DNA of 64,000 bases from Manis javanica. Its lineage: Eukaryota; Chordata; Mammalia; Pholidota; Manidae. This document shows positions 19,909-43,929 of the stretch, one piece after another. The stretch spans positions 108,331,001 to 108,395,000 of the forward strand of contig NC_133161.1 of assembly GCF_040802235.1 (NCBI RefSeq), given 5' to 3'. The notes beneath the pieces are model-generated. The model ran no database searches. It was not told where the DNA came from and was given only the letters and a program-made list of their open reading frames with translations. Position numbers and translations under genes: made by a program. Positions within the stretch are counted from its first letter, which is position 1; each line of letters opens with the position of its first letter.

Positions 19909-20280
19909 CCAAATGATTTCACTCATATGTGGAGTATAAGAACAAAGGAAAACTGAAGGAACAAAATAGCAGCAGAATCACAGAACCCAAGAATGGAGTA
20001 ACAGTTACCAAAGGGAAAGGGACTGGGGAGGATGGCTGGGAAGGAATGGATAAGGTGGGGGGGAAGAAAGGGGCCCTTAAGAGGAGCATGTATAATGTGG
20101 GGGGTGGGGCACGGGGAGGGCTGTGCAATAGAGAAGACAAGTAGTGATTTTACAGCATCTTACTACGTTGATGGACAGTGACTGTGAAGGGGCATGTGGG
20201 TGGGACTTGGTGAAGGGGTAAGCCTAGTAAACATAATGTCCTTCATGTAATTATAGATTAATGATACCAAAATAAAAAAA
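19909..20280 (+). mobile_element. 5'-truncated L1, right half with A-rich tail
   Basis: Resumes ORF2/3' UTR text (TGATTTCACTCATATGTGGAG) right after the provirus target duplication and runs to ATGATACCAAAATAAAAAAA. The right target-site copy AAGAAAAGATTAGG overlaps the tail at 20280-20293. Confidence 0.9.
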
Positions 20281-20507: not shown

Positions 20508-20983
20508 TGTTGGGTCTGTGCAGTCAACTTCCAAATAACCGGGAGATGCGTGGATGCAAAAGCAAGAGCGTTTATTGGGTAGCCAGCATGCTGGGGTCTC
20601 ACACTCGCAGGTGGAGACCCCAAAGTACAAGTTCATTCTTCTTTTATACAGAGGAATGGGGTCGTGTGCAGAGCGGGCCGTGCACAGAGTGGGCCGTGTG
20701 CAGAAAGGGCCTAGATATGACCTGACCTTTACTGCAATTGGTCTCAACTTGTTTACCAACTATTTGGATTGGTTCCTTCTAGGTGGAGTGATACTCTTGA
20801 CTGCCGGGTGGGTGAGTTGTCTACTTTCTATTGGCTGGGAGCATCTGGCCAGCTTTGGTAACTGTATTGGTTAAATTTTTGTAACTCTTGTAACTTCTTC
20901 TTGATATGACCTGTCTCTTACAAAATGAAGTCACTTATAAAATGGAGTAGTTTATGTCAAGACTCTTTAGTCAGGACTTCTCA
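20508..20983 (-). repeat. Provirus 2 3' LTR (476 bp)
   Basis: On the minus strand it runs TGAGAAGTCC to GACCCAACA. It contains TATAAAA (near 20645) and AATAAA (near 20570). It is 25 bp longer than its partner, mainly from an extra GGGCCGTG-containing repeat near 20680-20710. Confidence 0.9.
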
Positions 20984-21334
20984 TTCCCCCCTTGAGTTTT
21001 GTTCTATTTCAAATCTTTGAAGTAATGGAATAGGGTCTTCCTTACTCAAGGGCCTGTACTGAGATCTAAGGACCATGAGTTGGATGGTGGAGATCCGTTT
21101 CTGTACAGATTTGAGGAGCGCATTGATAAGGCAGGGGCCACATGTAAGAGCCAATATCAGAAGTAAGAGGGGACCTGCTACTGCTGATAATAAAGTTGTT
21201 AGCCATGGGGACCAACAGAAAAGGCTTTCATACCAATTTTGGGTGGCTGCCCTATTTTTCTGCCTGTAAGTTCTGATGTAAGGCTTCTTGGACCTGAAAC
21301 AAAGCTTGTAGGGAGGAAAGAAACTTTTTATCAT
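20981..21334 (-). pseudogene. env: Provirus 2 env remnant (TM C-terminus only)
   Basis: The translation shows WYESLFCWSPWLTTLL followed by a hydrophobic anchor (VAGPLLLLILALTCGPC) and a tail with RISTIQLMVL, the C-terminal end of a gammaretroviral transmembrane subunit. The surface subunit, fusion peptide and CX6CC region are absent. The stop codon overlaps the first bases of the 3' LTR. Confidence 0.85.
20984..20993 (-). other. Provirus 2 polypurine tract
   Basis: AAGGGGGGAA on the minus strand directly abuts the 3' LTR. Confidence 0.75.
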
Positions 21335-21349
21335 TTTGTTTAGCTAACA

Positions 21350-24300
21350 GATTAGCTCACAAATTGAGAAGGATCGGGGGAGGCCTGCCAAACAGGACTT
21401 CAAACGGGGTCATGCCCAATCTATAGGGAGTGTTCCTGACCCTGAACAGAACAAAGGGGAGGAGAGTCACCCAGTCACCACTAGTTTTTAGGGCTAATTT
21501 GGTAAAAGTCTCCTTGATAGTCCGATTCATTCTTTCTACTTGACCTGAGCTCTGGGGATGATATGCACAATGTAACTTCCAGTTAGCCCCCAATATATGA
21601 CTTAGCCCTTGTGTTACCTGAGAAATGAAAGCTAGTCCATTGTCTGACCCAATAAAAGCAGGAAGGCCATACCTTGGAATAATGTCTTCCAGGAATTTCT
21701 TGGCAATTACTACAGCAGTTTCTCTTTTGGTTGGAAAGGCTTCTACCCATCCAGAAAAGATGTCTACAAATACTAGCAAATACTTGTAACCATATTTTCC
21801 TGGTTTGACCTCGGTAAAGTCTACTTCCCAATAGGCTCCAGGTCTTGTACCTCTTTCTCAGACCCCCTTTTTGGCTGTTCCTCCCTTCGTGTTGACCAAC
21901 TGGCAAACTTTACACCAAGAGACTACCTGATTGACTAATAATCGGAGGCCATGGACCCGGAGATAGGAGCTCCAGAGCAGTTCTGTCATTTTATGTTCTC
22001 CCAGGTGTGTGGCCTGATGAATGTGTGAGACTAGTTAGACAGCTAGGAGGGAGGGTAGAATATAGTCCCCTCTTGGGTCTCGGTACCATTGTTCATCTTT
22101 ATGAGCATAATGTGGTCCCCGCTTCTGGATCTCAGACAGGTCTTTCTGAGTGTACTCTGGTACTTCTGGTAAGGTGGGAGTAATAGCAGTTGGTGGGGGG
22201 TTTGGCTGCTACCAGGGCCTTGGGTGCCTCTGCTAGGGCAGCTTCCTCTGTGCCAAGTCTGCTCTATTATTTCCTTGGGCCACTTGCCCTATGCCTTTTT
22301 GGTGCCTGGGACAATGTGTGATAGCAATCACCTGGAGAAGCCAAATGGCCTGTAGCAAGTCTAGGATCTCTTGCTTGTTTTTGATATTTCTTCCCTCAGC
22401 TGTTAGCAGTCCTCTTTCTTTGTAAATGGCCCCCTGTACGTGGGCTGTGGCAAAGGCATACCTGCTGTCAGTATATATGTTTAGCCGCTTACCTTTTGCC
22501 AATTGAAGAGCCTTGGTGAGGGCTATCAGTTCTGCTTTCTGAGTTCCTATCAGTTTGCTGTCAGTTCCTGAGGGTAGGGGGATGCCCATACAACTTCCAT
22601 CTCTGTAGTCACTGCTGCTCCTGCATATCTTACCCCATCTTTGATGAAGCTGCTTCTGTCCGTGAACCAGGTAGTATCAGGATCCAACAAGGGAACATCT
22701 CCCAGATTGGGGCGTGTTCCCTGTAGGTGGCTGAGGATCTCCTCGCGCTCGTGTGAGGGCGAATCTAGATTTGGATTTGGATCCGGTAACAGGGTGGCTG
22801 GATTCAATGCTTTGCTAGCAGTAAAGCAGATACGAGGCAGATTAAGGAGCAGAGCTTGATAGTGGGTGACACGTGAATTTGACAGCCATCAGTCGGGAGG
22901 GCATTTTAAGACTCCCTCGATGGCATGGGGTGTTGTGACCACAAGAGTCTTACCCAGCGTCAACTTATCTGCATCTTTAACAAGATGTGCAGTGGCGGCT
23001 ATGATGCGGAAGCATGGTGGTCATCTACTGGCCACTGGGTCTAATTTATTTGATAGATAAGCCACTGGTCTCACCCAGGGGCCCAGCTTCTGGGTGAGAA
23101 CTCCTTTTGCCACTCCCCTCCGTTCGTCACATACAGGAGGAAGGGCTTGGAGACATCTGGGAGGGCTAGGGCTGGGGCCTGCAGGAGAGCCTCTGATTTT
23201 TGACAAGCTTCTTCCATCTCAGGCGTCCATGCAAAGGAAGGTTCCTGTCCTTGGGTGGCCTCATATAAGGGCTTAGCTAGTTCGGCGAAACTAGGAATCC
23301 AGAGGTGGCAGAATGCCGCTGTCCGCAAGAACTCTCTGATGGCCCGTCTACAGTCTGGCCTTGGTAGCTGGAAAATAGTCTCTTTTCTGGCCTGGGATAG
23401 CCATCAGCGTCCCCCCTTGAGTTTGTATCCCACGGAGGTGACTTCTTCTAAACAGAGTTGAGCTTTTTTAGCAGATCCTCGGTACCCTTGTTTTCCCAGT
23501 GTCATAAGTAAATCTTTAGTGGCCGCCTGACATTCTGTTTCTGTCCAGGAAGCTATTAATAAATCATCTACATATTGTAGCAGGCTCACCTCTGGGTTGA
23601 AACGCTGGTACTCACTCAGATCTTCATGGAGGGCCTCGTGGAAGATGTTTGGTGAGTTCTTGAATCCCTGAGGCAACCTGGTCCATGTTAGTTGACCATT
23701 CAATCCGTCTTCTGGATCTCTCCATTCAAAAGCAAACAGCGGTTGACTCAAGGCGGCTAGTGGTAAGCTGAAGAAAGCATCTTTTAGGTCTAGGACGGTG
23801 TATCCGACCCTGTCAGGTGGCAGAGAGCTCAGAAGTGTATAAGGGTTGGGGACTGTGGGGTGCTTGTCCTCAACCTGTTTATTAATTTCTCGCAAGTCCT
23901 GTACTGGACGGAAGTCATTTGTCCCTGGTTTCTTAACAGGCAGTAGAGGGGTGTTCCAAGGCGACTGGCATGGGACTAGAATTCCCGCCTGTTGCAGGCG
24001 TCAGGTATGAAGGGCAATGCTGACCTTTGCTTCTTGGGGTATTGGGTACTGCTGCACATGGACAGGGGTGGCAGTGGCCTTTAGTTGGACCACTATCGGT
24101 GCCCATTGCTTTGCCCATCCGATGCCTCCCGTCTCGGCCCATACTTCTGGGATCTCTTTTAGCCACTTATGGAGGAGCTCATAGTTGTCTTTTTTTTTTC
24201 TCGGGTTAGTGTAAAGTCTATTGTTCATCATTAAGTGATAAGAATGCTGACCAGGGCTCCGCTCCGGTTGTTTACGGAAACTGAGTCGCCCTCAGAGTGG

Positions 24301-24596
24301 ATGTGGGCTCCCACCTTGGATAGCAAATCTCTCCCCAGAAGTGGGTAGGGGCACTCAGGGATAAGCATGAATGAGTGGGATACCTGTCCCAATTTTAGGT
24401 ATATGGATCTTCAGGTAGTCCATGAATATCGGTTAGATCCTGTGGCTCCCCGTACCCAGGACTGTTTGGGAGAAAGGGGCCCTATGGGGTTCCTAAGGAT
24501 TGAATGTTCTCCAGTGTCAACCATAGAAGTCACTGGCTTCCCCCCCACATTCAGGGTTACCCAAGGCTCGGGGAGGGGGGCTGAACCCTGTCCCCC
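21350..24596 (-). pseudogene. pol: Provirus 2 pro-pol, degraded
   Basis: Protease with VDTGEHSI (DTG codons 24510-24518); RT with [10 protein letters not shown] (YVDD codons 23563-23574) inside a 163-codon open piece (23404-23895); RNase H pieces with WFTDRSS, where the usual FTDGSS Gly is Arg (near 22660), and YTDSRYAF (near 22470); integrase with CKVCQ (near 21910), [13 protein letters not shown] (near 21750), SDNGLAF and QVERMNRT. The order and residue text are those of the MLV group. Several frameshifts and stops separate the pieces. The integrase C-terminal domain is lost at the env deletion junction near 21355. Confidence 0.9.
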
Positions 24597-24599
24597 TCA
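24597..24599 (-). other. Gag-pol boundary stop codon (opal) of provirus 2
   Basis: The minus strand reads ...LDD, TGA, GGQG..., and the text after it leads in frame into protease. MLV-group viruses have a suppressible UAG at exactly this place followed by GGQG. Here the codon is TGA. Confidence 0.75.
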
Positions 24600-26167
24600 G
24601 TCATCTAAGCCTTCCATCTGGAGGACTGTGGGTTGTTCCCTGGCTTCTCTCTTGGAGCATTCATTTTTCCAGTGGCCTCTCTTTTTGCAGTAGGCACACT
24701 GGTCTCTCTGCAGCGGGTTCCGGCCCTTGGGGGAGGCTTTGGGATCTCTAGGGCCCCATTGTTCAGTCAGCCTTTTTTATTCTCAGTTCCGGGCAGGACC
24801 TTCCAACAAATTAGCCAACAAAATCTTAGCCAACCCATGGGTCTGTTGCTCTTCTGGGGTATCTCGGTTATTGAACACTTTCTCAGCCACTGCCAAAAGT
24901 TTGGCTAGCCTTTTTCCCTCAAAATCTTCTAATCTGTGTAACTTCCACCTGATGTCTGGGGCTGATTGATTGACAAAGGCCAAATTTACCGCGGACTGAT
25001 TTTCAGCATTTCTGTGTCCAGGGGAGTGTAGGTCCTGTAGGCTTCCAGCAGTCTCTCAAGGAAAGCTCCAGGAGGTTCTGTGGGCTCCTGTTTCACCTGA
25101 CTTACTTTAGACAAATTGGTGGGACGGCGTGCCGCCGCCCAGAGACCCCCCCATCAGAATCTGGTGGTAGACAGTGAGCCTTTCCTTACCTTCGTCCGTA
25201 TTGAAGTCCCAGTCGGGCCTACTTGAGGGAAATCTGATGTTTATAATATCTAAACCCGTGGTTGGTCTCCCATCGACCCCTGGGACTAGTTTCTGGGCTT
25301 CAGTCAGGACTCTCTCTCTCTCTCTTCAGTAGTGAAGAGAACCTGTAAAAGCTGATGGCAGTCATCCCAGGTGGGCTGGTGGATGAAAAGGACTGAATCC
25401 AACAAGTCTATAAATTTACTGGGTTTCTCAGAGAAGGGGGAGGGGTTTGCATTTTCCAATTATACAAGTCACTGGTAGAGAAAGGCCAATCAACTAAGAA
25501 CTTTGGGCCATCGGGGCCCAGTGGGCCCGCCACCTGCAAAGGTAGGGCCACTGTGGGATGTTCTCAGGAGCTCGTTGGTCTCGAGAGCGATTATGGGGAG
25601 GACTAGTTAACATGGGTGGGTCCTCCGGGTCAGGTTCCTCTTCCATAGGTAAGGTTCAGGAGGATTGTGGAGAGGAGCAGGTCCATATGGTGGTGGATGG
25701 GGAAAGGATGGATCTTCTGAAGAGGGGTCTGAAGGGGGAAGGACAGAATAAAGAGGTGCGGCTGAAGGAACCGAGGGATTGGAATTTGACTTGCAGGGTG
25801 CCTTAGAGGAGCTTGGAGCTTTAGAGGAGGCAGTGGCCACGAGGGTCACCTTTAAAGGCGGAAGAAGGGGAGCCAGTCATTTAGGTCGACTTTCCACTAG
25901 AGTCTGCCAAGTGGTGATGTAAGGAACCTGGTTGGGGTGCCCAGAGCATCCATATACAAGGTCCTTGACCCTGAAAATGGTGGGGAGGTCAAACGTGCCC
26001 TCCTTAGGCTACCCAACTCCGAACTTAGGCCATTTGTTCATGCAAAAGATAGAAAGCTTACCCTTTTTAACAGCAAGACCAAGATTTTTAGCCTGGGTTT
26101 GAAAGTCACTGAAGCGAGATACAAAAATAGACAGAGGAGAAGAGGGAATAGATTGCAACTGGCCCAT
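24600..26167 (-). pseudogene. gag: Provirus 2 gag, degraded
   Basis: The ATG at 26167 starts MGQLQSIPSSPLS, an MLV-type myristoylated matrix N-terminus. An in-frame TAG at 26009-26011 replaces what is Trp in the family. The p12-like part contains HPPPYG (25684-25696). Capsid C-terminal text AFVNQSAPDIRWKL and VFNNRDTPEE is plain at 24783-24983. One CCHC knuckle (CAYCKKRGHWKNEC, about 24655-24698) lies just before the LDD and stop boundary. Further frameshifts lie between 25000 and 25550. Confidence 0.88.
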
Positions 26168-26615
26168 GCCAAAGAGAAACAAGAAGACAAGACAGACAAA
26201 TATGAGTATACAAACAGAGAACACAATGTCAGGGCACCTTTTTCCAAAAAGAAACCAGACGAAGAGGGACAGCCTCTCCCGTAAAATGGCTCCATCACGC
26301 TCTCCAAAAAGAAATAGAAACCAGGTGTGAGAGGATGCCCTCTCCCGTAAAAGGGTTCCATCAGGGAGCGACCTCCCATCTCCCGCCAGACTGAAAAATA
26401 AAGTCCAAAAACAGAAGTGAGCGAGGGACGTCTCTGTGCTCACCAAGGTGCGGGGAAAAATAGTGCGTCCACCTAGTCCCTGGACTGCCAGATCAGGTTC
26501 CCGCCAATAAACAGCACAAATACAAGGACACATGGCACATAAACAGGCAATCAAACACTGCAGTCACACTCACACTTATCCGTACATTCCACACGGTCTC
26601 CGGTTATGGGAGCAC

Positions 26616-26633
26616 GATCCCAGACGAGCCCCC
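26616..26633 (-). other. Provirus 2 primer-binding site, tRNA-Pro type
   Basis: Minus strand TGGGGGCTCGTCTGGGAT three bases inside the 5' LTR; differs from the MLV primer site at one position. Confidence 0.88.
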
Positions 26634-26636
26634 AAA

Positions 26637-27087
26637 TGTTGGGTCTGTGCAATCAACCTCCAAATAACCCGGAGACGCATGGATGCAAAAGCAAGACCAT
26701 TTATTGGGTAGCCAGCATGCTGGGGTCTCACACTTGCAGGTGGAGACCCCAAAGTACAAGTTCATTCTTTTTTATACATGGAATGGGGTCATGTGCAGAG
26801 CGGGCTGTGCGCAGAATGGGCCTAGATATGACCTGACCTTTACTGCAATTGGTTTCAATTTGTTTACCAACTATTTGGATTGGTTCTTTCTAAGTGGAGT
26901 GATACTCTTAACTGCCAGGTGGGCGAGTTGTCTACATTCTATTGGCTGGGAGCATCTGGCCAGCTTTGGTAACTGTGTTGGTTAAATTTTTGTAACTCTT
27001 GTAACTTCTTGATGTGACCTGTCTCTTACAAAATGAACTCATAAAATGGAATAGCTTATGTCAAGACTCTTTAGTCAGGACTCCTCA
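26637..27087 (-). repeat. Provirus 2 5' LTR (451 bp)
   Basis: Partner of 20508-20983, bounded by TG...CA on the minus strand and followed on the plus strand by the CCAG target duplication. Confidence 0.9.
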
Positions 27088-27388: not shown

Positions 27389-27400
27389 TAATGTTCAGAC
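27389..27400 (+). repeat. Target-site duplication of chimeric L1, left copy
   Basis: TAATGTTCAGAC here and at 35582-35593, one on each side of the 8.18-kb L1-ERV chimera, with the oligo-T (poly(A) of the minus strand) directly inside the left copy. Confidence 0.93.
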
Positions 27401-27415
27401 TTTTTTTTTTTTTTT
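27401..27415 (-). other. Poly(A) tail of chimeric L1
   Basis: Fifteen T on the plus strand, between the target duplication and the ERV R-region end. Confidence 0.9.
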
Positions 27416-27735
27416 GAGAGAGCATCTCTCATATTTATTGATCAAATGGTTGTTAACAATAAAATTCAGTAAAGGGGAGTCAATGCTCAATGCACAATTA
27501 TTAATTCACCCCCAGCCTAATTCTCATCAGTCTCCAATCTTCTGAAGCATAACAAACAAGTTCTTACATGGTGAACAAATTCTTACATAGTGAATAAGTT
27601 CTTACATGCTGAACAGTACAAAGGCAGTCATCACAAAAACTTTCGGTTTTGATCACTCATTATGAACTATAAAAAATCAGGTCAAATATGAATATTTGTT
27701 TGATTTTTATACTTGATTTATATGTGAATCCCACA
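27416..27735 (-). repeat. Solo U3-R part of an ERV LTR at the L1 3' end
   Basis: Read on the minus strand, it starts TGTGGGATTCACATATAAAT directly after a polypurine tract and ends GAGAGATGCTCTCTC at the poly(A). AATAAA (27439-27434) lies 18 bases before the poly(A), the expected spacing for 3' cleavage. It thus ends at an R boundary with no U5. Internal short repeats TGTAAGAACTTGTT/TTCACCATG occur near 27565-27610. Confidence 0.8.
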
Positions 27736-27746
27736 TTTCTCCCTTT
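27736..27746 (-). other. Polypurine tract of the ERV tail
   Basis: AAAGGGAGAAA on the minus strand immediately before the TGTGGG LTR start; the usual arrangement at a retroviral 3' LTR. Confidence 0.75.
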
Positions 27747-28366
27747 ATTCTTATTATTATTTTTTTAAATAAAATGCTGAAGTGGTAGGTAGATGCAAGA
27801 TAAAGGTAGAAAACATAGTTTAGTGTTGTAAGAGAGCAAATGTAGATGATCAGGTGTGTGCCTGTAGACTATGTGTTAATCCAAGCTAGACAAGGGCAAT
27901 AAAACATCCACAGATGCAGAAGATTTCTCTCAAAACAGGGGGCGGTGAGGTTCTAAGCCTCACCTCTGCTGATTCCCAATTTCTCACCTGATGGCCCCCC
28001 TGTGACTGTGCCTGTCTTAGGTTGTTCCTCCCTTGAGAAATCTTACCCGTCTCTGGCTAACCAGTCATCTTCCGGGGCCATACAGGGAAATGTAAAGTTG
28101 GTAAGTGAGAGAGAAGCCATATTGTTTGAAAAGGTTAGCTTTTTACTTCTTTGCAGATTTATGCCCTGTGGCTTCTATGCCCAGCATTTGTCTTGAGGTA
28201 TTTTTACCACTTGGAGGAATTATGATACTCGGTAAATTCGATATGAGGCATGAATTCTATTTAAGGGTTGTAATTAGGAAGGAAGAAGAAAAGCTATAGA
28301 GGTAGCATATGAAAGAAAACATGGGAAGATTGATTATTTCTTTGACATATCTTCTTGTAGAGTAAC

Positions 28367-28842
28367 TTAAGCATGTATAGGTTTTAAACTACTAATTAAA
28401 TTGCACACACACATTAACATAATAGGAATACAGTTACATAACCAAAGCAAATCTATAATTACCAGCCATCTCCAATGAAGCCAAGAAAACCAGTTAGGCA
28501 CCCTAAGCATTTGTGGAAATTGGTCTATGATATAATGGATATTGTCCAACTGTACTTGAACAGTCTGGGAGAAATCAGACAAATTAAAACAACCCATTCC
28601 TGGGAACTATTCACATCCCATATGTTCTTTTAACAGTAGATAGTCTGTAGTTGTAAGATTTTGGAGGACTACAACTTGCACTTCTCCTAATTCTTGGTTG
28701 AGTTCCAACAGTATAGATCCAATCAAATTTGTCATTTTACTATATGCACAGGCCAGCTTAGATATCTCCTTCTTCATTCCAATGGCAAGTCCAGGAACCA
28801 GTGGGATGAATGCAGCTACAGCTGCAGCATCGCCTGGATCTT
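28367..28842 (-). pseudogene. env: Retroviral Env TM-subunit remnant in L1 3' tail
   Basis: The minus-strand frame has a hydrophobic Ala-rich stretch (AAAVAAFIPLVPGLAIG), a heptad-like region, an LQN...DYLLLKEHMGC segment resembling the immunosuppressive region, then one in-frame TAG, then FPGMGCFNLSD. Spacing fits a CX6CC motif whose seventh position after the first Cys is Gly in place of Cys (GGT for TGT). A membrane-anchor-like stretch WLVIIDLLWLCNCIPIMLM follows, and the frame ends at 28367. It resembles gamma-type TM subunits as carried by several class I and II ERVs. No surface subunit is present. Confidence 0.75.
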
Positions 28843-28928
28843 TGTTGAGGTTTTTTGATGATCATCTTCTGGTATGTCTCTTCCAGAGAGTGCTGATGTT
28901 GGAAGTTCTTCATATCATATCTTAGTTC

Positions 28929-29015
28929 ATTTTCTGGGTAGCCAAATTAGGCTTTGATCCTCTGTATAAACACAAACAGCCCCTTTGCCCACACTTTGAT
29001 ATGCCCTTTATACCA
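28929..29015 (-). pseudogene. Integrase C-terminal remnant in L1 3' tail
   Basis: Minus-strand text WYKGHIK and, after a frameshift, GKGAVCVY and IWLPRK resembles the C-terminal (WGRG...CV...WIP) region of betaretroviral integrases. Short and frameshifted, so the call is tentative. It lies just upstream of the Env remnant, as expected for pol before env with the surface subunit deleted. Confidence 0.5.
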
Positions 29016-29589
29016 TTGTGTAGAACTCATTAGAGGTCACCACACAGGAACTGCTTTTTTTTATTCATTAAGAGAAAGGAATATTATCAGAAAAGTGTAC
29101 ATCCATAGCCGATCATCTGACACCCTTTAAGTGATATAAATTAAGGATATTTAAAGCATGCATTAATCGTTCATTTACAGTTAGTTTTATCCTATCAGGG
29201 AGTAATCCCCCTTCTCTTTCTTTTTATTTATTTATTTATTTTTTAATTTTATATTTTTGTTATCTTTAATCTACACTTACATGAAGAATATTATGTTTAC
29301 TAGGCTCTCCCCTATACCAGGTCCCCCCTATAAACCCCTTTACAGTCACTGTCCATCAGCATAGCAAAATGTTGTAGAATCACTACTTGTCTTCTCTGTC
29401 TTGTACAGCCCTCCCCTTTCTCCCACCCCCCCGTATGCATGCTAATATTAATACCCCTCTTCTTCCCCCTCCTTATCCCTCCCTGCCCACTCATCCTCCC
29501 CAGTCCCTTTCCCTTTGGTACCTGTTAGTCCATTCTTGGGTTCTGTGATTCCACTGCTGCTTTGTTCCTTCAGTTTTTCCTTTGTTCTT

Positions 29590-32500
29590 ATACTCCACAG
29601 ATGAGTGAAATCATTTGGTATGTCTCTTTCTCCGCTTGGCTTATTTCACTGAGCATAATACCCTCCAGCTCCATCTATGTTGCTGCAAATGGTAGGATTT
29701 TCTCTCTTATGGCTGAGTAGTATTCCATTGTGTATATGTACCACATCTTCTTTATCCATTTATCTACCGATGGACATTTAGGTTGCTTCCAATTCTTGGC
29801 TATTGTAAATAGTGCTGCGATAAACATAGGGGTGCATCTGTCTTTCTCAAACTTGATTGCTGCGTTCTTAGGGTAAATTTCTAGGAGTGGAATTCCTGGG
29901 TCAAATGGTAAGTCTGTTTTGAGCATTTTGATGAACCTCCATACTGCTTTCCACAATGGTTGAACTAATTTACATTCCCACCAGCAGTGTAGGAGGGTTC
30001 CCCTTTCTCCACAGCCTCGCCAACATTTGATGTTGTTTGTCTTTTGGATGGCAGCCATCCTTACATGTGTGAGGTGATACCTCATTGTAGTTTTAATTTG
30101 CATTTCTCTGATAATTAGCGATGTGGAGCATCTTTTCATGTGTCTGTTAGCCATTTGCATCTCTTTTTTGGAGAACTGTCTGTTCAGTTCCTCTGCCCAC
30201 TTTTTAAATGGATTATTTGATTTTTGTTTGTTGAGGTGTGTGAGCTCTTTATATATTTGGGACGTCAAGCCTTTATTGGATCTGTCATTTACAAATATAT
30301 TCTCCCATACTGTCAGGTTCCTTTTTGTTCTATTGATGGTGTCTTTTGCTGTACAGAAGCTTTTCAGCTTAATATAGTCCCACTTGTTCATTTTTGCTGT
30401 TGTTTTCCTTGCCCAGGGAGATATGTTCAAGAAGAGGTCACTCATGTTTATGTCTAAGAGGTTTTTGCCTATGTTTTTTTCCACGAGTTTAATGGTTTCA
30501 TGACTTACATTCAGGTCTCTGATCCATTTTGAATTTACTTTTGTATATGGGGTTAGACAATGGTCCATTTTCATTCTCCTACATGTAGCTGTCCAGTTTT
30601 GCCAGCACCATCTGTTGAAGAGACTGTCATTTTGCCATTGTATGTCCATGGCTCCTTTATCAAATATTAATTGACCATATATGTTTGGGTTAATGTCTGG
30701 AGTCTCTAATCTGTTCCACTGGTCTGTGGCTCTGTTCTTGTGCCAGTACCAAATTGTCTTGATTACTATGGCTTTATAATAGAGCTTGAAATTGGGGAGT
30801 GAGATCTCCCCTACTTTATTCTTCTTTCTCAGGATTGCTTTGGCTGTTCGGGGTCTTTGGTGGTTCCATATGAACTTTTGAATTATTTGTTCCAGTTCAT
30901 TGAAGAATGTTGCTGGTAATTTGAGAGGGATTGCATCAAATCTGTATATTGCTTTGGGCAGGATGGCCATTTTGATGATACTGATTCTTCCCAGCCATGA
31001 GCATGGGATGAGTTTCCATTTATTAGTAACGTCTTTTATTTCTCTTAAGAGTGTCTTGTAGTTTTCAGCGTATAGGTCTTTCACTTCCTTGGTTAGGTTT
31101 ATTCCTAGGTATTTTATTCTTTTTGATGCTATTGTGAATAGAATTCTTTTCCTGATTTCTCTTTATATTAGTTCATTGTTAGTGTATAGGAAAGCTACGG
31201 ATTTCTGTGTGTTAATTTTGTATCCTGCAACTTTGCTGAATTCTGATATTAGTTATAGTAGTTTTGGAGTAGAGTCTTTAGAGTTTTCTATGTACAATAT
31301 CATGTCATCTACAAATAGTGACAGTTTGACTTCTTCTCTACCAGTCTGGATTCCTTGTATTTCTTTGTTTTGTCTGATTGCCATGGCTAGGACCTCCAGT
31401 ACTACACTGAATGACAGTGGGGAGAGTGGGCATCCCTGTCTTGTTCCCGATCTCAGAGGAAAAGCTTTCAGCCTCTTACTGTTCAGTATGATGTTAGCTG
31501 TGGGTTTATCATATATGGCCTTTATTATGTTGAGGTACTTCCCCTCTATGCCCATTTTGTTGAGAGTTTTTATCATGAATTGATGTTGAATTTTGTCAAA
31601 TGCTTTTTCAGCATCTATGGAGATGATCATGTGGTTTTTGTCTTTTTTTTTGTTGACATGGTGGATGATGTTGATGGATTTTCGAATGTTGTACCATCCT
31701 TGCATCCCTGGGATGAATCCCACTTGGTCATGCTGTACGATCCTTTTGATGTAGTTTTGAATTCAGTTTGCTAATATTTTATTGAGTATTTTTGCATCTA
31801 CATTCATCAGGGATATTGGTCTGTAATTTTCTTTTTTGGTGGGGTCTTTGCCTGGTTTTGGTATTAGGGTGATGTTGGCTTCATAGAATGAGTTTGGGAG
31901 TATTCCCTCCCTTCTATTTTTTGGAAAACTTTAAGGAGAATAGGTATTATGTGTTCTCTGTGTGTCTGATAAAATTCAGAGGTAAATCCGTCCGGCCCGG
32001 GTGCTTTGTTCTTGGGTAGTTTTTTGATTACCATTTCAATTTCTTTGCTCGTAAGTGGTTTGTTTAACTTTTGTGTTTCTTCCTTGGTCAATCTTGGAAG
32101 GTTGTATTTCTCTAGGAAGTTGTCCATTTCTTCCAGGTTTTCCAGCTTGTTGGCATATAGGTTTTCATAGTAGTCTTTAATAATTCTTTGTATTTCTGTG
32201 GAGTCTGTCAAGATTTTTCCATTCTCATTTCTGAATCTGTTGATTTGTGTTGATTCTCTTTTTCTCTTAATAAGTTTAGCTAGAGGCTTATCTATTTTGT
32301 TTATTTTCTCAAAGAACCAACTCTTGGTTTCATTGACTTTTTCTATTGTTTTATTCTTCTCAATTTTGTTTATTTCTTCTCTGATCTTTATTATGTCCCC
32401 CCTTCTGCTGACTTTAGGCCTCATTTGTTCTTCTTTTTCCAGTTTCGGTAATTGTGACTTTAGACTATTCATTTGGGATTGTTCTTCCTTCTTCACGTGT

Positions 32501-33403
32501 GCCTGGTTCGCTATATACTTTCCTCTTAAGACTGCTTTCGCTGCATCCCCAGAAGTTGGGGCTTTGTGTTGTTGTTGTCATTTGTTTCCATATATTCCTT
32601 GATCTCTATTTTAATTTGTTCATTGATCCATTGATTATTTAGGAGCATGTTGTTAAGCCTCCATGTGTTTGTGAGCCTTTTTGTTTTCTTTGTAGAATTT
32701 CTAATTTTATACCTTTGTGGTCTGAAAAGTTGGTTGGTAGAATGTAAAAATTTTGGAATTTACTGAGGCTCTTTTTGTGAGCTACTATGTTGTCTATTCT
32801 GGAGAATATTCCATGTGCACTTGAGAAGAATGTGTATCCTGTTGCTTTTGGATGTAGAGTTCTATAGATGTCTATTACATCCATCTGCTCTACTCTGTTG
32901 TTCAGTGCTTCTGTGTCCTTACTTATTTTCTGGCTGGTGTATCTATCCTTTGGGGTGGGTGGTATGTTGAAGTCTCCTAAAATGAATGCGTTGCAGTCTG
33001 TTTCCCCCTTTAGTTCTGTTAGTATTTGTTTCACAAATGCTTGTGCTCCTCTGTTGGGTGCATATATATTTAGAATGGTTATATCCTCTTGTTGGACTGA
33101 GCCCTTTATCCTTATGTAGTGTCCTTCTTTATCTCTTGTTACTTTCTTTGTTTTGAAGTCTATTTTGTCTGATATTAGTACTGCAGCCCCTGCTTTCTTC
33201 TCGCTGTTGTTTGCCTGAAATATGTTTTTCCATCCCTTGACTTTTAGTCTGTACATGTCTTTGGGTTTGAGGTGAGTTTCTTATAAGCAGCATATAGATG
33301 GGTCTTGCTTTTTTATCCATTCTATTACTCTGTGTCTTTTGATTGATGCATTAAGTCCATTTACATTTAGGGTTACTATTGAAAGATATGTACTTATTGC
33401 CAT
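29590..33403 (-). pseudogene. L1 ORF2 of the chimeric element, broken
   Basis: An ATG at 33403-33401 starts MAISTYLSIVTLNVNGLNAS, the typical endonuclease N-terminus. Endonuclease text includes LNIYAPN, ILGDFN and FSDHKGIKL (32640-33256). RT text includes [14 protein letters not shown] (near 32000), QGCPLSPL (near 31430) and FVDDMILY (near 31310), where most L1s read FADD. The C-terminal domain with the Cys-rich segment ends at a premature TAG near 29675 in place of the Trp seen in sister copies. At least three frameshifts or stops divide it. Confidence 0.9.
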
Positions 33404-33708
33404 TGCAGGCTTTAAATTCGTGGTTACCAAAGGTTCAAGGTTAGCCTCTTTAGTATCTTTCCGCCTAACTTAGCTTGCTTATTGAGCAGTTATATACACT
33501 GTCTGGTGATTCTTTTCTTCTCTCCCTTCTTATTCCTCCTCCTCCATTCTTCATATGTTGGGTGTTTTGTTCTGTGCTCTTTCTAGGAGTGCTCCCATCT
33601 AGAGCAGTCCCTGTAAGATGCCCTGTAGAGGTGGTTTGTGGGAAGCAATTCCCTCAGCTTTTGCTTGTCTGGGAATTGTTTAATCCCACCATCATATTTA
33701 AATGATAG

Positions 33709-34448
33709 TCATGCTGGATACAGTATCCTTGGTTCAAGGCCCTTCTGTTTCATTGCATTAAATATATCATGCCATTCTCTTCTGGCCTGTAGGGTTTCTG
33801 TCGAGAAGTCTGATGTTAGCCTGATGGGTTTTCCTTTAAAGGTGACCTTTTTCTCTCTAACTGCCTTTAAAACTCTTTCCTTGTCCTTGATCTTTGCCAT
33901 TTTAATTATTATCTGTGTTGGTGTTGTCCTCCTTGGATCCTTTCTGTTGGGGGTTCTTTGTATTTCCGTGGTCTGTTCGATTATTTCCTCCCCCAGTTTG
34001 GGGAAGTTTTCAGCAATTATTTCTTCCAAGGTACTTTCCATCCCTTTTCCTCTCTCCTTCTTCTGGTACCCCTTTAATACGGATATTGTTCCTTTTGGAT
34101 TGGTCACACAGTTCTCTTAATATTGTTTAATTCCTGGAGATCCTTTTATCTCTCTCTATGTCAGCTTCTATGCGTTCCTGTTCTCTGGTTTCAATTCCAT
34201 CAATGGCCTCTTGCATCTTATCCATTCTGCTCATAAATCCTTCCAGAGTTTGTTTCATTTCTGTAATCTCCTTTCTGGCATCTGTGATCTCCCTCCAGAC
34301 TTCATCCCTTAGCTCTTGCATATTTCTCTGCATCTCTGTCAGCATGTTTATGATTTTTATTTTGAATTCTTTGTCAGGAAGACTGGTTCGGTCTGTCTCT
34401 TTCTCTGGTGTCTGTGATCTTGGTTTGCCTGTAAGTTTGCCTTTTCAT
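33709..34448 (-). pseudogene. L1 ORF1 of the chimeric element, broken
   Basis: Starts MKRQTYRQTK near 34448. A coiled-coil section (MQRNMQELRDEVW, with heptads to about 34130) is followed by RRM and C-terminal domain text ending EWHDIFNAMKQK near 33740. A frameshift near 34370 and another near 34120 disrupt it. It encoded the trimeric RNA-binding ORF1p. Confidence 0.85.
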
Positions 34449-34805
34449 GGTGATAGCAATAGTTTGCAGAGCTGGGACTAGTGACGGCTGGAAGAAGTTC
34501 CCTTCTTGTTGGTTTGTGGCCTTCCTCTCCTGGGAGAATAGCGACCTCTAGTGGCTTGTGCTGGGTGGCTGCACACAGACAGGGCTTCTGCTTCCTGCCC
34601 GGCTGCTATGGAGTTTATCTCCGCTTTTGCTGTGGGCATGGCCTGGCTCGGGCTGCTGCTCCAAAGTGGTGGAGTTGCGTTGGAGGGGGAGTGGCCGGGA
34701 GGCTATTTATCTCCATAAGGGGCCTCCTTGCTCCATGCAGCCCAGGGGATAAGAGTGCCCAGAGATCCCCAGATTCCCTACCTCTGGACTAAGTGTCCCG
34801 CCCTG

Positions 34806-35256
34806 CCCTTTTAAGACTTCCAAAAATCACCCACCAAAACAAAACAATGACCACACACACGAAAAAAAAGCCACTCATTTTTCTTTATTCTCCAGCGCCA
34901 GCCTCGGGCCACTCACCAGACTTGCTGCCCAGTTTACCTAGTATTGGGGTCCGTATCCCTTTAAGACTTCCAAAAAGCGCTCGCCAAAACAAAACAACAA
35001 CAACAGCAAAAAAAATGGCCACTCGCTTTTCTTTTGTTCTCCAGCACTGGCCTCCAATACCTGCTCGCCGGTTTTGCTGCCCTGTTTCCCTAGTATTGGG
35101 GTCCCTGTCCCTTTAAGTCTTCCAAAAAGCACTCGCCACAACAACACAACAACAACAACAACAACAACAACAAGATGGCTGCTCGATTTTCTTTTGTCCT
35201 CCGGTGCTGGCCTCTGGTACCCGCTCACTGTTCTTGCTCCCCTGTTTCCCTAGTAT
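34806..35256 (-). repeat. Tandem ~151-bp units in the L1 5' UTR
   Basis: Three head-to-tail copies begin at plus positions 34806, 34957 and 35109 with CCCTTTAAGACTTCCAAAAA-like text, each followed by CAAAACAA or CAACAA runs, GGCCACTCG, TTCTCCAG, GCTGGCCTC and CCTAGTATTGGGGTCC. Spacing is 151 and 152 bp. The second young L1 (37662-43926) has only one such unit. They look like promoter monomers. Confidence 0.8.
35139..35172. repeat. (CAA)n microsatellite in L1 5' UTR
   Basis: An almost pure CAA run inside the third 5' UTR unit. Confidence 0.85.
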
Positions 35257-35581
35257 CCAGGGCCGTGTGCATGCACTGTGTCTGCGCTCTGGTCTGGATG
35301 GCTGGGTCTGGGTGTTCAGCAGTCCTGGGCTCCTTATCCCTCCCGCTCTGACTTCTCTCCTCCCGCTGGGAGCTGGGGGGAGGGGCGCTCGGGACCCGCT
35401 GGGCCGAGGTTTGTATCTTACCCCCTTTGCAAGGCGCTGGGTTCTCGTAGGTGTTGATGTGGAATGGATGTTGTCCTGTGTCCTCTGGTCTTTATTCTAG
35501 GAAGAGTTGTCTTTGTTCTATTTTCATAGATGTATGTGGTTTTGGGAGGAGATTTCCGCTGCTCTACTCATGCCGCCATCC

Positions 35582-35593
35582 TAATGTTCAGAC
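35582..35593 (+). repeat. Target-site duplication of chimeric L1, right copy
   Basis: TAATGTTCAGAC, identical to 27389-27400. Confidence 0.93.
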
Positions 35594-37395: not shown

Positions 37396-37661
37396 TGATT
37401 CCTACCTACTTAAAATTTTTTATTTTATTGAGACTAATTTTTTAGAGCAGTTTTAGGTTTAAAACAAAATTGAGGGGAAGGTGCAGAGGTTTCCCATATA
37501 CTCCCTGCTCCCCCCAGAGCCTACTCCTTTATCAACACCCCCCACCCCAGAGGGTTGCGTTTGTTACAATTGATGGACCTACACTGGCACATCATAGTCA
37601 CTCAGACTCTTGTTCCAATTAATGGATCACTGTTAGTGTTGTCAAGATGTTAGTTACTTAC
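37395..37661. repeat. Ancient L1M fragment, left part
   Basis: Phrases AGAGCAGTTTTAGGTTTAAAAC, GAGGTTTCCCATATACTCCC and TTGTTACAATTGATGGACCTA are typical of old L1 3' ends. The sequence is resumed at 43930 beyond the younger L1. Confidence 0.65.
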
Positions 37662-37999
37662 TTTTTTTGTGTGTGTGGTATCATTGATATACAATCACAT
37701 GAGCAACATTGTGGTGACTACATCCCCCCATTATCAAGTCCCCAACACATACCCCATTACAGTCACTGTCCAGCAGCATAATAAGATGCTATAGAATCAC
37801 TACTTGTCTTCTCTGTGCTATACTTCCTTCCCTTTGTCACCCCTACATTACTTGTGCTAATCATAATGCGCCTTATACCCTTATCCCTCCCTTCCTACCC
37901 ACCCTCCCCAGTCCCTTTCCCTTTGGTAACTGTTAGTCCATTCTTGGGTTTTGTGAGTCTGCTGCTGTTTTGCCTCTTCAGTTTTGCTTGGTTGTTATA

Positions 38000-40900
38000 T
38001 TCCACATTTGATACTTGTCTTTCTCCACCTGGCTTATTTCACTGAGCGTAATACCCTCTAGCTCCATCCATCTTGTTGTAAATGATAGTATTTGTTTTCT
38101 TCTTACAGCTGAATAATAGTCCATTGTGTATATACACCACATCTTCTTTATCCATTCATGTACTGATGGACACTTAGGTTGCTTCCATTTCTTGACTACT
38201 GTAAATAGTGCTGTGATAAACATAGGGGTGCATATGTCTTTTTAATCTGGGATCCTGTATTCTTAGGGTAAATTCATAGGAGTGAAATGGTATTTCTATT
38301 TTGAGTTTTTTGAGGAACCTGCATACTGCTTTCCACAATGGTTGAACTAGTTTACATTTCCACCAACTGTAGGAGGGTTCCCCTTTCTCCACAACCTCGC
38401 CAACATTTGTTATTGTTTGTCTTTTGGATGGAGGTGATCTTTAGTGCTGTGAGGTGATACCTCATTGTGGTTTTAATTTGCATTTCTCCGATGACTAGTG
38501 ATGTGGAGCATCTTTTCATGTGTCTGTTGGCCATTTGCATTTCTTTGGAGAACTGTTCAGCTCCTCTACCCGTTTTTTAATTGGCTTGTTTGCTTTTTGT
38601 TTGTTGAGGTGTGTGAACTCTTTATATAATTTGGATGTCAACCCCTTATCAGATATGTCATTTATGAATATATTCTCCCATGCTGTAAGATATCCTTTGC
38701 TATACAGAATGGTGTCCTTTGCAGTATGGAGCATTTTAGTTTGATATAGTCCCACTTGTTCATTTTTGCTTTTGTTTCCCTTTCCCAGAGAGATATGTTC
38801 ATGAAGAAGTTGCTCATGTTTATGTCCAAGAGATTTTTGCCTGTTTTTTCCTAAGAGTTTTATGGTTTAATGACTTACATTCAGGTCTTTGATCCATTTC
38901 GAATTTACTTTTGTATATGGGGTTAGACAATGATCCAGTTTCATTCTCTTACATGTAGCTGTCCAGTTTTGCCAACACCAGCTGTTGAAGAGGCTGTCGT
39001 TTCCCCATTGTATATCCATGGCTCCTTTATCATATATTAATTGACCATATATGCTTGGGTTAATATGTGGACTCTCTAGTCTGTTCCATTGGTCTCTGGG
39101 TCTGTTCTTGTGCCAGTACCAAATTGTCATGATTACTGTAGCTTTGAAGTAGAGCATGAAGTTGGGGAATATAATCCCCCCAGCTTTATTCTTCCTTCTC
39201 AGGATTGCTTTGGCTATTCGGGGTCTTTTGTGGTTCCATATGAATTTAGAACTATTTGTTCCAATTCATTGAAGAATGCTGTAGGTATTTTGACAGGGAT
39301 TGCACTGAATCTGTAGATTGTTTTAGGCAGAATGGCCATTTTGACAATGTTAATTCTTTCTACTCAAGCGCATGGGATGAATTTCCATTTATTAGTGTCC
39401 TCTTTAATTTATCTCAACAGTGTCTTGTAGTTTTCAGGGTATAGGTCTTTCACTTCCTTGGTTAGGTTTATTCCTAGGTATTTTATTCTTTTTGATGTAA
39501 TTGTGAATGGAATTGTTTTCCTGAGTTCTCTTTCTGCTATTTCATCGTTAGTGAATAGGAATGCAATAGATTTCTGTGTATTAATTTTGTATCCTGCAAC
39601 TTTGCTGCATTCAGCTATTAGATCTAGTAGTTTTGGGGTGGATTCTTTAGGGTTTGTTATGTACAGTATTATGTCATCTGCAAACAGGGACAGTTTAACT
39701 TCTTCCTTGCCAATCTGGATGCCTTTTATTTCTTTGTGTTGTCTGATTGCCATGTTTAGGACCTCCAGAACTATGTTGAATAAAAGCAGGAAGAGTGGGC
39801 ATCCTTGTCTTGTTCCTGATCTTAATGGAAAAGCTTTCAGCTTCTTGCTGTTAAGTCTGATGTTGGCTGTGGGTCATGTATGGCCTTTATTATGTTGAGG
39901 TACTTGCTCTCTATACCCATTTTGTTGGGACTTTTTATCATGAAAGGGTGTTGAATTTTGTCAAATGCTTTTTCAGTATCTATGGAGATGATCGTGTGAC
40001 TTGTCCTTTTTTTATTGATATAGTGGATGATGTTGGTAGATTTTTGAATGTTGTACTGTCCTTGCATCCCTGGGATGAATCCCACTTGATCGTGATGTAT
40101 GATCCTCTTGGTGTATTTTTGAATTTGGTTTTCTAATACTTTGTTGAGTATTTTTGCATCTGTGTTCATCAGGGATATTGGTCTGTAGTTTTTTTGTTGT
40201 GTCTTTGCTTGGTTTTTGTATTAGAGTGATGCTGGCTTTAAGGAATGAGTTTGGAAGTATTTCCTCATATGCTACTTTTTGGAAAACTTTAAGGAGAATG
40301 GGTATTATGTCTTCTCTAAATGTCTGATAAAATTCAGCGGTGAATCCATCTGGTTCGGGAGCTTTGTTCTCAGGTAGTTTTTTGATTACCGATTCAATTT
40401 CATTGCTGGTAACTGGTCTGTTCAGATTTTCTGTTTCTTCCTTGGTCAGCCTTGGAAGGTTGTATTTTTCTAGAAACTTGTCCATTTCTTCTAGGTTATC
40501 CAGCTTGTTAGCACATAATTTTTCAAAGTATTCTCTAATAATTCTTTGTATTTCTGTGGTGTCCATAGTGATTTTTTCTTTCTCATTTCTGATTCTGTTT
40601 ATGTGTGTAGACTCTCTTTTTTTCTTGGTAAGTCTGGCTAGGGATTTATCATTTTGTTTGCTTTCTCAAAGAACCAGCTCTTGGTTTCATTAATTTTTCT
40701 ATTGTTTTATTCTTCTCAATTTTATTTATTTCATCTCTGATCTTTATTATGTCCCTCCTTCTACTGACTTTGGGGCTCATTTATTCTTCTTTTTTCTAGT
40801 TTCAATAATTGTGAATTTAGACTGTTCATTTGGGTTTGTTCTTCCTTCTTTAAATAGGTCTGGATTGCTGTATACTTTCCTCTTAGAACTGCCTTCGCTG

Positions 40901-41755
40901 TGTCCCACAGAAGTTGGGGCATTGGGGCATTGTGCTGTCATTGTCATTTGTCTCCAAATATTGCTTGATCTCTGTTTTAATTTGGTTATTGATCCATTGA
41001 TTATTTAGGAGCATGTTGTTAAGCCTCCATGTGTTTGTGAGCCTTTTTGTTTTCTTTGTACCGTTTATTTCTAGTTTCATATCTTTGTGATCTGAGAATT
41101 TCGGTCTTTTTGAATTTGCTGAGATTCTTTTTGTGGCCTAGTATGTGGTCTATTCTGGAAAATATTCCATGTGCACTTGAGAAGAATGTGTATCCTGCTG
41201 CTCTTGGGTGGAGTGTTCTATAGATGTCTGTTAGGTCCATGTTGTCTAATGTGTTGTTCAATGCCTCTATGTCCTTACTTATTTTCTGTCTGATTGATGA
41301 GTCCTTTGGAGTGACTGGTGTGTTTAGTGTCCTAAAATTAATGCATTGCATTCTATTCCCCCCATTAATTCTGTTAGTATTTGTTTCACATATATAGGTC
41401 CTCCTGTGTTGGGTACGTATTTATAATGGTTATATCGTCTTGTTGGACTGATCCCTTTATCATTATGTAATGTCCTTCTTTATCTCATGTTACTTTCTTA
41501 GTTTTGAAGTCTATTTTGTCTGATACGAGTACTGCAACACTTGCTTTTTTCTCCTTATTGTTTGCATGAAATGTCTTTTTCCATCCGTTCAGTTTCAGTC
41601 TGTGTGTGTCTTTGGGATTGAAGTGAGTCTCCTGTAGGCAGCATAAAGATGTGTCTTACTTTTTTACCCATTCTGTAACTCTGCGCCTTTTGATTTGTGC
41701 ATTTGGTACATTTACATTTAGAGTGATTATTGACAGATATGTACTTATTGCCATT
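38000..41755 (-). pseudogene. L1 ORF2 of second copy, broken
   Basis: Recognisable pieces: endonuclease text GYTFFSSAHGIFSRIDHILGHKK (in part, near 41150), RT text [20 protein letters not shown] (near 40330), [11 protein letters not shown] (near 39680) and the C-terminal MWCIYTMDYYSAVRRKQIL (near 38100). The RT motif is the canonical FADD. At least six separate open pieces show heavy frameshifting. Confidence 0.88.
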
Positions 41756-42205
41756 GCAGGCTTTGGATTTGCGGTTACCAAAGGTTCAAGGGCAGTTTCT
41801 TTACTATCTAGCAGTCTACCTTAACTCATTTATTACTCTATTATAAACACAGTGATGATTCTTTTTTCTCTCCCTTCTTTTTCTTCCTCCTCCAATGTTT
41901 ATATGTTAGGTGTCATAGTCTCTTTGTATATCCCTTGACTGACTTTGTGGGTAGCTTATTTAATTTTGCGTTTGGTTTGTATTTAGTTGGTCTGCTTCCT
42001 TTGCTGTGGTTTTATTTTCTCTGGTGACAGCTATTTAGTCTTAGGCACACTTCCAGCTAGAGCAGTCCCTTTAAAATATACTGTAGAGATGGTTGTTGAA
42101 GGTAAATTCCCTCAATTTTTTCTTATATGGGAATTGTTTAATCTCTCCTTCACATTTAAATGATAATTTTTCTAGACAGAGTATTGTTGGTTTGAGGCCA
42201 TTCTG

Positions 42206-42945
42206 TTACATTGCATTGAACATATCATGCCACTCCCTTCTGGCCTGTAAGCTTTCTGCTGAGAAGTCTGATGATAGCCTAATGGGTTTTCCTTTATAGG
42301 TGATCTTTTTTCTCTCTCTGGCTTCTTTTAATACTCTGTTCTTGTCTTTTATCTTTGCCATCTTAATTATTATATGTCTTGGTGTTATCCTCCTTGAGTC
42401 CCTTGCGTTGGGAGATCTGTGGACTTCCATGGCCTGAGAGACTATTTCCTTCCCCAGATTGGGGAAGGTTTCACCAATTATTTCTTCACTTTTTCTTTCT
42501 CTTCTTCTGGTACTCCTATAGTGCAAATATGTTCTGTTTGGATTGGTCACACAGTTTTCTTAATATTCTCTCATTCCTAGATCCTTTTTTCTCCCTCTGT
42601 GTCAGCTTCTCTCTATTCTTGTTAGACTCTGAGATCTAGTCCATTAACTGTCTCCTCCACCTCACCTAATTTGCTTTTAAATCCCTCCATTGTTTGGTTC
42701 ATTTCAGTTATCTCCTGAATTCATCCCTTAGCTCTTGAATGTTTTTCTGTAGCTCCAATAGCGTGCTTATGACTTTTATTTTGAATTCTTTTTCAGGAAG
42801 ATTGGTGATTTCAGTCTCACTGAACCCTCTTGCTGGTGTTTGAGGGATTTTGGATTGAACAACTTTCTTCTGCCTTTCCGTAGTCCTGGAGTGATGGGAG
42901 TGGTTGCCGGCGAGTGGCGCGGGGGTCAGCTGAGAGAACAAAGTC
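42206..42945 (-). pseudogene. L1 ORF1 of second copy, broken
   Basis: Contains ETEITNLPEKEFKIKVIS and coiled-coil text (near 42720-42830), then the RNA-binding part with KITYKGKPIRLSSDFSAESL (near 42270). Disrupted between 42550 and 42700. Confidence 0.82.
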
Positions 42946-43929
42946 CTTTCCTCCTTCCCAGTTGCTGTACCTGTCTCCGCTGTCTGTGCTGGTTAACCGC
43001 ATGCAGGGAGCAGCCTGTGGGTTATTCCCCTAAACTGCCATGGGCAGGTGGCCCTCAGTATGGCCTAGGGCGATAGCGGGGGTCACAGGCGAGTGGCTCG
43101 GGATCTTCCATGAGAACAATGCCCCATTCATGCCTCCCAGTCTCAGCGCCTGTGTCTGCTGTCTGTGCCGGTTAATCTTGTGCAGGGAGCAGCCTCTGAG
43201 TCTGGGCCAGTTAGCCATGGGCAGGGAGAATCCTCTGCATTAAGCTGTGTAGTTGCCATAGGCAAGGTTGCCCTCCTGCTGGTCTGCAGCAATGGTGGGA
43301 ACAGCCTGTTTGCGTGCAAGTGCCGGCCAGGGGGATGGAGCGGCAGGCTGCTTATCAAGATGAGGGGCCCTTTGTGGCTACGTTGCCAACCAGGGGGATA
43401 GGGCTCCTGAAGCTCCTGAGAGTTCCCAGCCTCCTGGGCTGAGTGTGCCAGGACAATTTTGTCCACCTGTTCCTTTTCCTAAACCTTTGCCCCTTTCAGT
43501 CTTTTAAAGCACCTGCTTTTCTTTTGTCCTAGGGCAGCCAGTTGTGGGAACCTGTTCGCAGTCTTAGTCTCAGACTTTGCTTTCAGCTACTCAAATCTTC
43601 AGAGCACCATGCAATGTGGGTCTGTGCTCCCGGTGTAGATTTCTAGGACTGGGTATTTATCCGTCCTGTGTTTCCACTAACCACCCCCAATCCCTGATTC
43701 TTTTCCTCCTGCTGGTGAGCTGGGGGTGGGGGTAGTGCTTGGGTCCCACCAGGTCACGGCTTTTTACTTTACCATTTTCTGTGAGATGTTGACTTCTCCC
43801 AGATATAGACTGGCTGGTGTACTGTTACTTCTGTTTACTCTTTTAGGAATAGTTGTATTTGCTGTATTTTAAAAATATATGTGGTTTGGGGAGGGATTTC
43901 CGCCACACTACTCATGTCGCCATCTTTTC

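Follow-up and report, generated by a model that had tools for sequence, protein, structure and literature searches.

A probable amplified L1 subfamily whose 3' end derives from an endogenous retrovirus

How does an L1 come to share one pair of target-site duplications (TSDs) with the 3' end of a retrovirus, and is such an arrangement the accident of one copy or the property of a lineage? The question is raised by a chimera on the minus strand at 27389-35593 of the 64,000-nucleotide stretch of Manis javanica DNA analysed here (the window), in which an L1 and 1.8 kb of retroviral 3' sequence are bracketed by 12-bp target duplications. We conclude, with a probability of about 0.9, that the window copy belongs to an L1 subfamily that has amplified and that terminates in the 3' end of an endogenous retrovirus (ERV).

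Read in the sense direction, the chimera consists of L1 5'UTR, ORF1, ORF2, L1 3'UTR (terminating in GATAAC), A-rich linker, ERV tail and poly(A) (Table 1). The flanking sequence TAATGTTCAGAC is an exact 12-bp repeat at 27389-27400 and 35582-35593 with no further occurrence on either strand of the window, and the target site reads AGAC/AC, unlike the T-run/AA kind. Both ORFs are fragmented into pieces, in which Pfam searches retrieve the LINE-1 domain set of ORF1 RBD (L1 ORF1 RBD-like, 2.1e-23), endonuclease (Exo_endo_phos, 1.7e-12) and reverse transcriptase (RVT_1, 5e-26). We call the window copy near-full-length because the nine fetched full-length copies with clear TSDs extend 11-16 nt further 5'. 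A preliminary description of the locus, made from its sequence, had correctly placed the 12-bp duplications around L1 and ERV together and the AATAAA 18 bases before a 15-nt poly(A); its designation of the L1 as full-length is to be corrected for the missing 11-16 nt and the broken ORFs.

Table 1. Features of the chimera, in window positions.
Feature	Position	Strand	Remarks
Target-site duplication, poly(A) side	27389..27400	.	exact 12-bp repeat, 2 occurrences in window
Poly(A), 15 nt (15 T on forward strand)	27401..27415	-	
ERV tail, 1,804 nt	27416..29219	-	
ERV LTR U3-R, 320 nt, stopping at R/U5 boundary	27416..27735	-	U3 start TGTGGGA as in L044, L045
AATAAA signal, 18 nt ahead of poly(A)	27434..27439	-	
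env TM remnant, two pieces (28610-28861, 28370-28606), same frame, one stop between	28370..28861	-	
Internal join: 930 nt of related ERV (L048/L045) missing from tail	28816..28842	-	
ERV stretch upstream of internal join, beginning at L1 junction	28843..29219	-	78% match to L048
A-rich linker, 39 nt, old L1 poly(A), variable among copies	29220..29258	-	
Near-full-length L1, ORFs broken	29259..35581	-	Pfam L1 domains, ORF pieces, sister-copy alignment
L1 5'UTR tandem units, about 150 nt each	34807..35268	-	
Target-site duplication, 5' side	35582..35593	.	exact 12-bp repeat

The junction between L1 and ERV was used as a query over the window's own genome. Among 1,218 first-look candidates, all 40 that were scored cover both the L1 and the ERV side, and 20 of the 39 loci other than the window were fetched at 10 kb (L009-L028). 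Every fetched copy ends at the R end, with alignments starting at 27401-27407, that is within 7 nt; at the other extremity, 13 extend as far as the L1 5' end (internal gaps occur in some), and 7 are 5'-truncated, at different L1 positions. Own TSDs (score 11 or more) are carried by 14 of the 21 copies including the window, compared to 7/420 in swapped-flank controls; the 14 include L013, whose duplication is mostly T, and the seven copies with no clear TSD are L011, L016, L019, L021, L024, L027 and L028. T-run/AA, the L1 target-site consensus, is found in 7 of the 13 sister copies with a clear TSD (7/14 when the differing window copy is included). A poly(A), TSDs of their own and truncated 5' ends, the hallmarks of LINE-1 insertion, are seen across the family, and the scored matches of the junction and L1 3'UTR queries together amount to at least 78 distinct loci, counting that of the window. 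Sense open frames in the 21 loci reach 722 aa at most, so an intact ORF2 (about 1,270 aa) is absent from this sample.

The preliminary description had offered two options, a one-off 3' transduction or a lineage with a lasting 3' module, and had expected a junction search of the same genome to find, in the latter case, many copies with a common junction and independent target duplications. This is what was found. The anatomy of one copy, taken alone, would be compatible with an L1 that copied its flanking ERV a single time, the window copy being that product; we give this option practically no credence, as it is already refuted by the 40/40 junction matches and by at least 78 distinct junction loci with other flanks and independent TSDs. 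The lineage proved the right option, given 20/20 ends, 14/21 TSDs and the 39/39 relatives described below. Spread by segmental duplication instead of retrotransposition has a similarly negligible probability: two neighbouring sites (C19:17116705 and C19:17127821; L080 and L081, identical over 110 nt) do look locally duplicated, but the copies have own TSDs (14/21), differing 5' truncations and about 5% mutual divergence, and their differing flanks refute duplication for the family as a whole. We also rejected the tail as an independent insertion, the observation named beforehand as fatal to a chimeric element: no TSD of the tail's own is seen, the duplications enclose L1 and tail jointly, and the same junction recurs.

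Some copies are themselves sites of insertion or change. At L022 (4959-6046), a truncated tail copy lies within another chimeric L1, with L1 sequence 31764-31783 on both sides, and L038 is likewise a tail copy inside an L1. The inner A-run is of variable length in L009-L028 and L049-L087, where GAAA- and TAAA-type microsatellites have grown.

In a tail-blind test, the L1 3'UTR alone (29262-29560) served as query and 40 of 3,474 candidates were scored. The short flanks fetched for the 39 other scored matches contain, without exception, an A-rich linker followed by the ERV tail (39/39). Such retention indicates that the inner A-run is rarely used as an end in this sample. Searches over the junction found only three database proteins; each begins with MIT and then lysines or arginines, the sequence expected from translation of an L1 end ATGATAAC and an A-run. 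The ATGATAAC variant is present in 5 of the 39 loci (L057, L069, L070, L072 and L083). L1s with no tail do exist: in the window and the 20 fetched loci, the tail is absent at 6 of 27 L1 3' ends, the other 21 belonging to copies picked for having it. Three of the six are in the window, at 20265, 37680 and 56164. One older L1 with no tail (37650-43924, minus strand) matches the chimera's L1 at about 83% in the 3' part, and a simple search found no TSD of 8 or more around it. A tree was built from the L1 3'UTRs of the window copy, 19 of the 20 fetched copies (L015 was too short) and 5 of the 6 tail-less L1s, a short fragment being omitted. The 20 chimeric sequences form one clade (100/99) against the 5 tail-less L1s, in a comparison that is small and biased, the chimeras having been chosen for resembling the window. 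The tree's terminal branches measure about 0.03 and its forks are weakly resolved.

These branches bear on whether the tail matters to its carrier. It could be a neutral passenger on a successful founder L1, the inner A-run being a poor end and the tail conferring no benefit. Short branches and weak forks resemble a burst from few sources, and the env in the tail is broken and common to copies in that broken state; on the other side stands the tail's presence in 39/39 nearest L1 relatives scored, which speaks for retention and not for benefit. We regard the passenger explanation as tentative, a little below an even chance.

The tail itself is the 3' end of an ERV, and the best evidence for this comes from whole-genome relatives with complete LTRs. 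A pattern search over the whole genome returned seven places where the R end is followed by no A-run. Four of them (L041, L042, L043 and L046) represent copies of the tail; L041 has no visible poly(A), and in the other three the A-rich end is altered. The other three (L044, L045 and L047) have common sequence beyond the R end, and L044 and L045 have complete LTRs, TGTGGGA...CCAACA. The 407-nt L044 is a genuine solo LTR of the family that lies inside an L1 and is flanked by the 5-bp repeats GAGGG; L045 keeps matching the tail, at 80% identity, across the env region. The window U3 begins at 27735, and the tail stops where U5 starts in both LTRs, which confirms against U5-bearing relatives the R boundary first deduced from the window. 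A provirus or solo LTR has U5, TG...CA ends and a 4-6 bp TSD; the tail instead ends at R plus poly(A), and a 12-bp TSD surrounds L1 and tail together.

Protein comparisons make for a weak, putative assignment of part of the tail to env. Pfam gave no match in five tail pieces, env pieces included, and one env piece weakly matched the ASLV fusion TM (E 0.13). With the same piece, 41 of 42 protein-database candidates are relatives at E <= 0.01; their contigs measure 502-2,022 nt and would be host DNA in metagenomes. Env and junction fragments of the chimera family occur as predicted proteins in metagenome-derived databases (P0001-P0046), probably as host DNA. Some of the 41 relatives have LQNRATIDYLL and CC motifs and others the altered LQNLTTTDYLL and GC; the two forms perhaps correspond to ERV and L1-borne copies, respectively. 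Viral, prokaryote, phage and plasmid collections yielded no relatives (53 and 10 pattern matches were unsupported by tblastn), and Rfam gave no match at gathering threshold.

A separate ERV lies only about 300 nt from the chimera (20508-27087, minus strand). Its two LTRs share 89% identity; it also has CCAG repeats of 4 bp, an env piece of the TLV_coat type and a broken pol. It was considered as the source of the tail and rejected: there is no nucleotide match, and the single env pair compared gave no meaningful protein match (E 19).

L048, just upstream of L045, represents a relative of the ERV site: it aligns with the tail at 78% from the first tail base (window 29219) onward and shows no L1 match at the point corresponding to the chimera junction. 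There it reads TTATT/AAAACGAAAAGGGGG, i.e. TT/AAAA, the L1 endonuclease consensus. The tail and this L1-free ERV relative share only about 78-80% identity, and the relative is not the founder locus. Between the L048 and L045 matches, 930 nt are absent from the tail at 28816-28842 (locus coordinates). All 21 copies align straight over this join, which fits one founder. There was presumably a single capture event. As to the cause of the gap, the GT...AG expected of splicing is not visible by eye at the join in the one relative; the gap may be due to deletion, to splicing or to an insertion in that relative.

The extent of the family can be gauged from its tail end. The sequence AATAAATATGAGAGATGCCCTCTCAAAAAAAA, comprising R end and poly(A), has 7,876 + 7,908 = 15,784 exact occurrences genome-wide (reversed control 0), which are tail ends and not proven L1-ERV fusions; the window's own tail end differs by one base and hence falls outside this count. 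Mean pairwise divergence is 5.4% in the ERV part (21 copies) and 5.9% in the L1 part (17 copies), and the two sets of distances are correlated (Mantel r 0.66, with 1 of 2,000 permutations as high). Half of the pairwise distance is about 2.7%, which at a substitution rate near 2e-9 per site per year suggests an expansion roughly 10-15 million years ago, in a sample that favours window-like copies.

A query with the tail end (40 scored of 3,907 candidates, with 12 loci cut, one being the window) bears on whether the tail has, besides its L1-borne spread, also amplified alone as a SINE-R-like non-autonomous element. Five of the 12 loci continue to the limit of the stretch cut or past 29216, and 6 stop within the tail, 3 of these 6 with clear TSDs (controls 0/30), as such an element would. 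Against this, the six 5' ends all differ (28058, 28090, 28171, 28240, 28404 and 28447), as in ordinary 5' truncation, and have no common start. We consider independent amplification of the tail unlikely.

The best reading remains an L1 lineage that retains a 3' module made up of an LTR terminator and a remnant of env. A common junction, a common R/U5 end, independent TSDs, truncations in the L1 as well as in the tail and an L1-free ERV relative are observed. We propose that a founding L1 integrated in sense orientation at a TT/AAAA site of an ERV, upstream of env TM. The L1 transcript would have run past its own A-rich end to be cut and polyadenylated at the R/U5 boundary of the ERV LTR, and the L1 machinery would have inserted this read-through RNA at a new site. 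Descendants would repeat the cycle, each with the old A-run, the internally shortened env and U3-R. The preliminary description had proposed the same route, L1 read-through to a retroviral LTR poly(A) signal in one RNA, and it fits the tests made; that read-through and use of the LTR signal recur in each round is our inference from sequence comparison. A stronger form, in which the LTR terminator replaced the weak 3' end of an autonomous L1 lineage, read-through of the A-run became near-obligate and the module aids RNA 3' processing or stability in what would be a dominant young L1 family, we place at even odds; the tail would then be of benefit to the L1.

The family indicates that an L1 lineage can acquire a 3' transduction as a durable component and offers a natural experiment on the 3'-end needs of an L1. 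By implication, env remnants, U3 and thousands of LTR poly(A) signals have been dispersed by L1 and not by retroviral replication, and ERV copy counts and LTR annotation in the host genome could be misled. No such family was described among the literature matches listed, which covered open-licence PMC with narrow terms.

Known systems share parts of this design. The SINE-R of SVA consists specifically of env and LTR. SINE-R is described as derived from HERV-K (PMC7353768). Like the chimera, the SVA SINE-R of hominoid primates is an ERV-derived 3' module with a poly(A) end and the L1 machinery as carrier. SVA, however, is non-autonomous and has Alu-like and VNTR parts, whereas the module here derives from another ERV and is fused to L1 itself; an SVA has hexamer, Alu-like and VNTR parts and lacks L1 coding sequence, and the chimera is an L1 that carries L1 ORFs. 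The two resemble each other in how they work, and the chimera is not itself an SVA. L1-mobilised processed ERV copies of the HERV-W type also end at R with a poly(A) and have L1-type TSDs, but they start within the ERV, whereas the chimera starts in the L1 5'UTR. In L1 3' transduction, read-through moves the sequence 3' of the L1 together with it to a new locus, where one TSD encloses both, and transduced flanks mark small lineages. The window copy has this arrangement, L1 and non-L1 flank lying in one TSD with the flank's poly(A) after its own signal; here, in contrast, the flank supplies an LTR poly(A) signal and is the standard 3' end in 39/39 nearest relatives. The process is L1 3' transduction, and what is unusual is that a transduced retroviral terminator seems to have become the usual 3' end throughout a large subfamily of L1.
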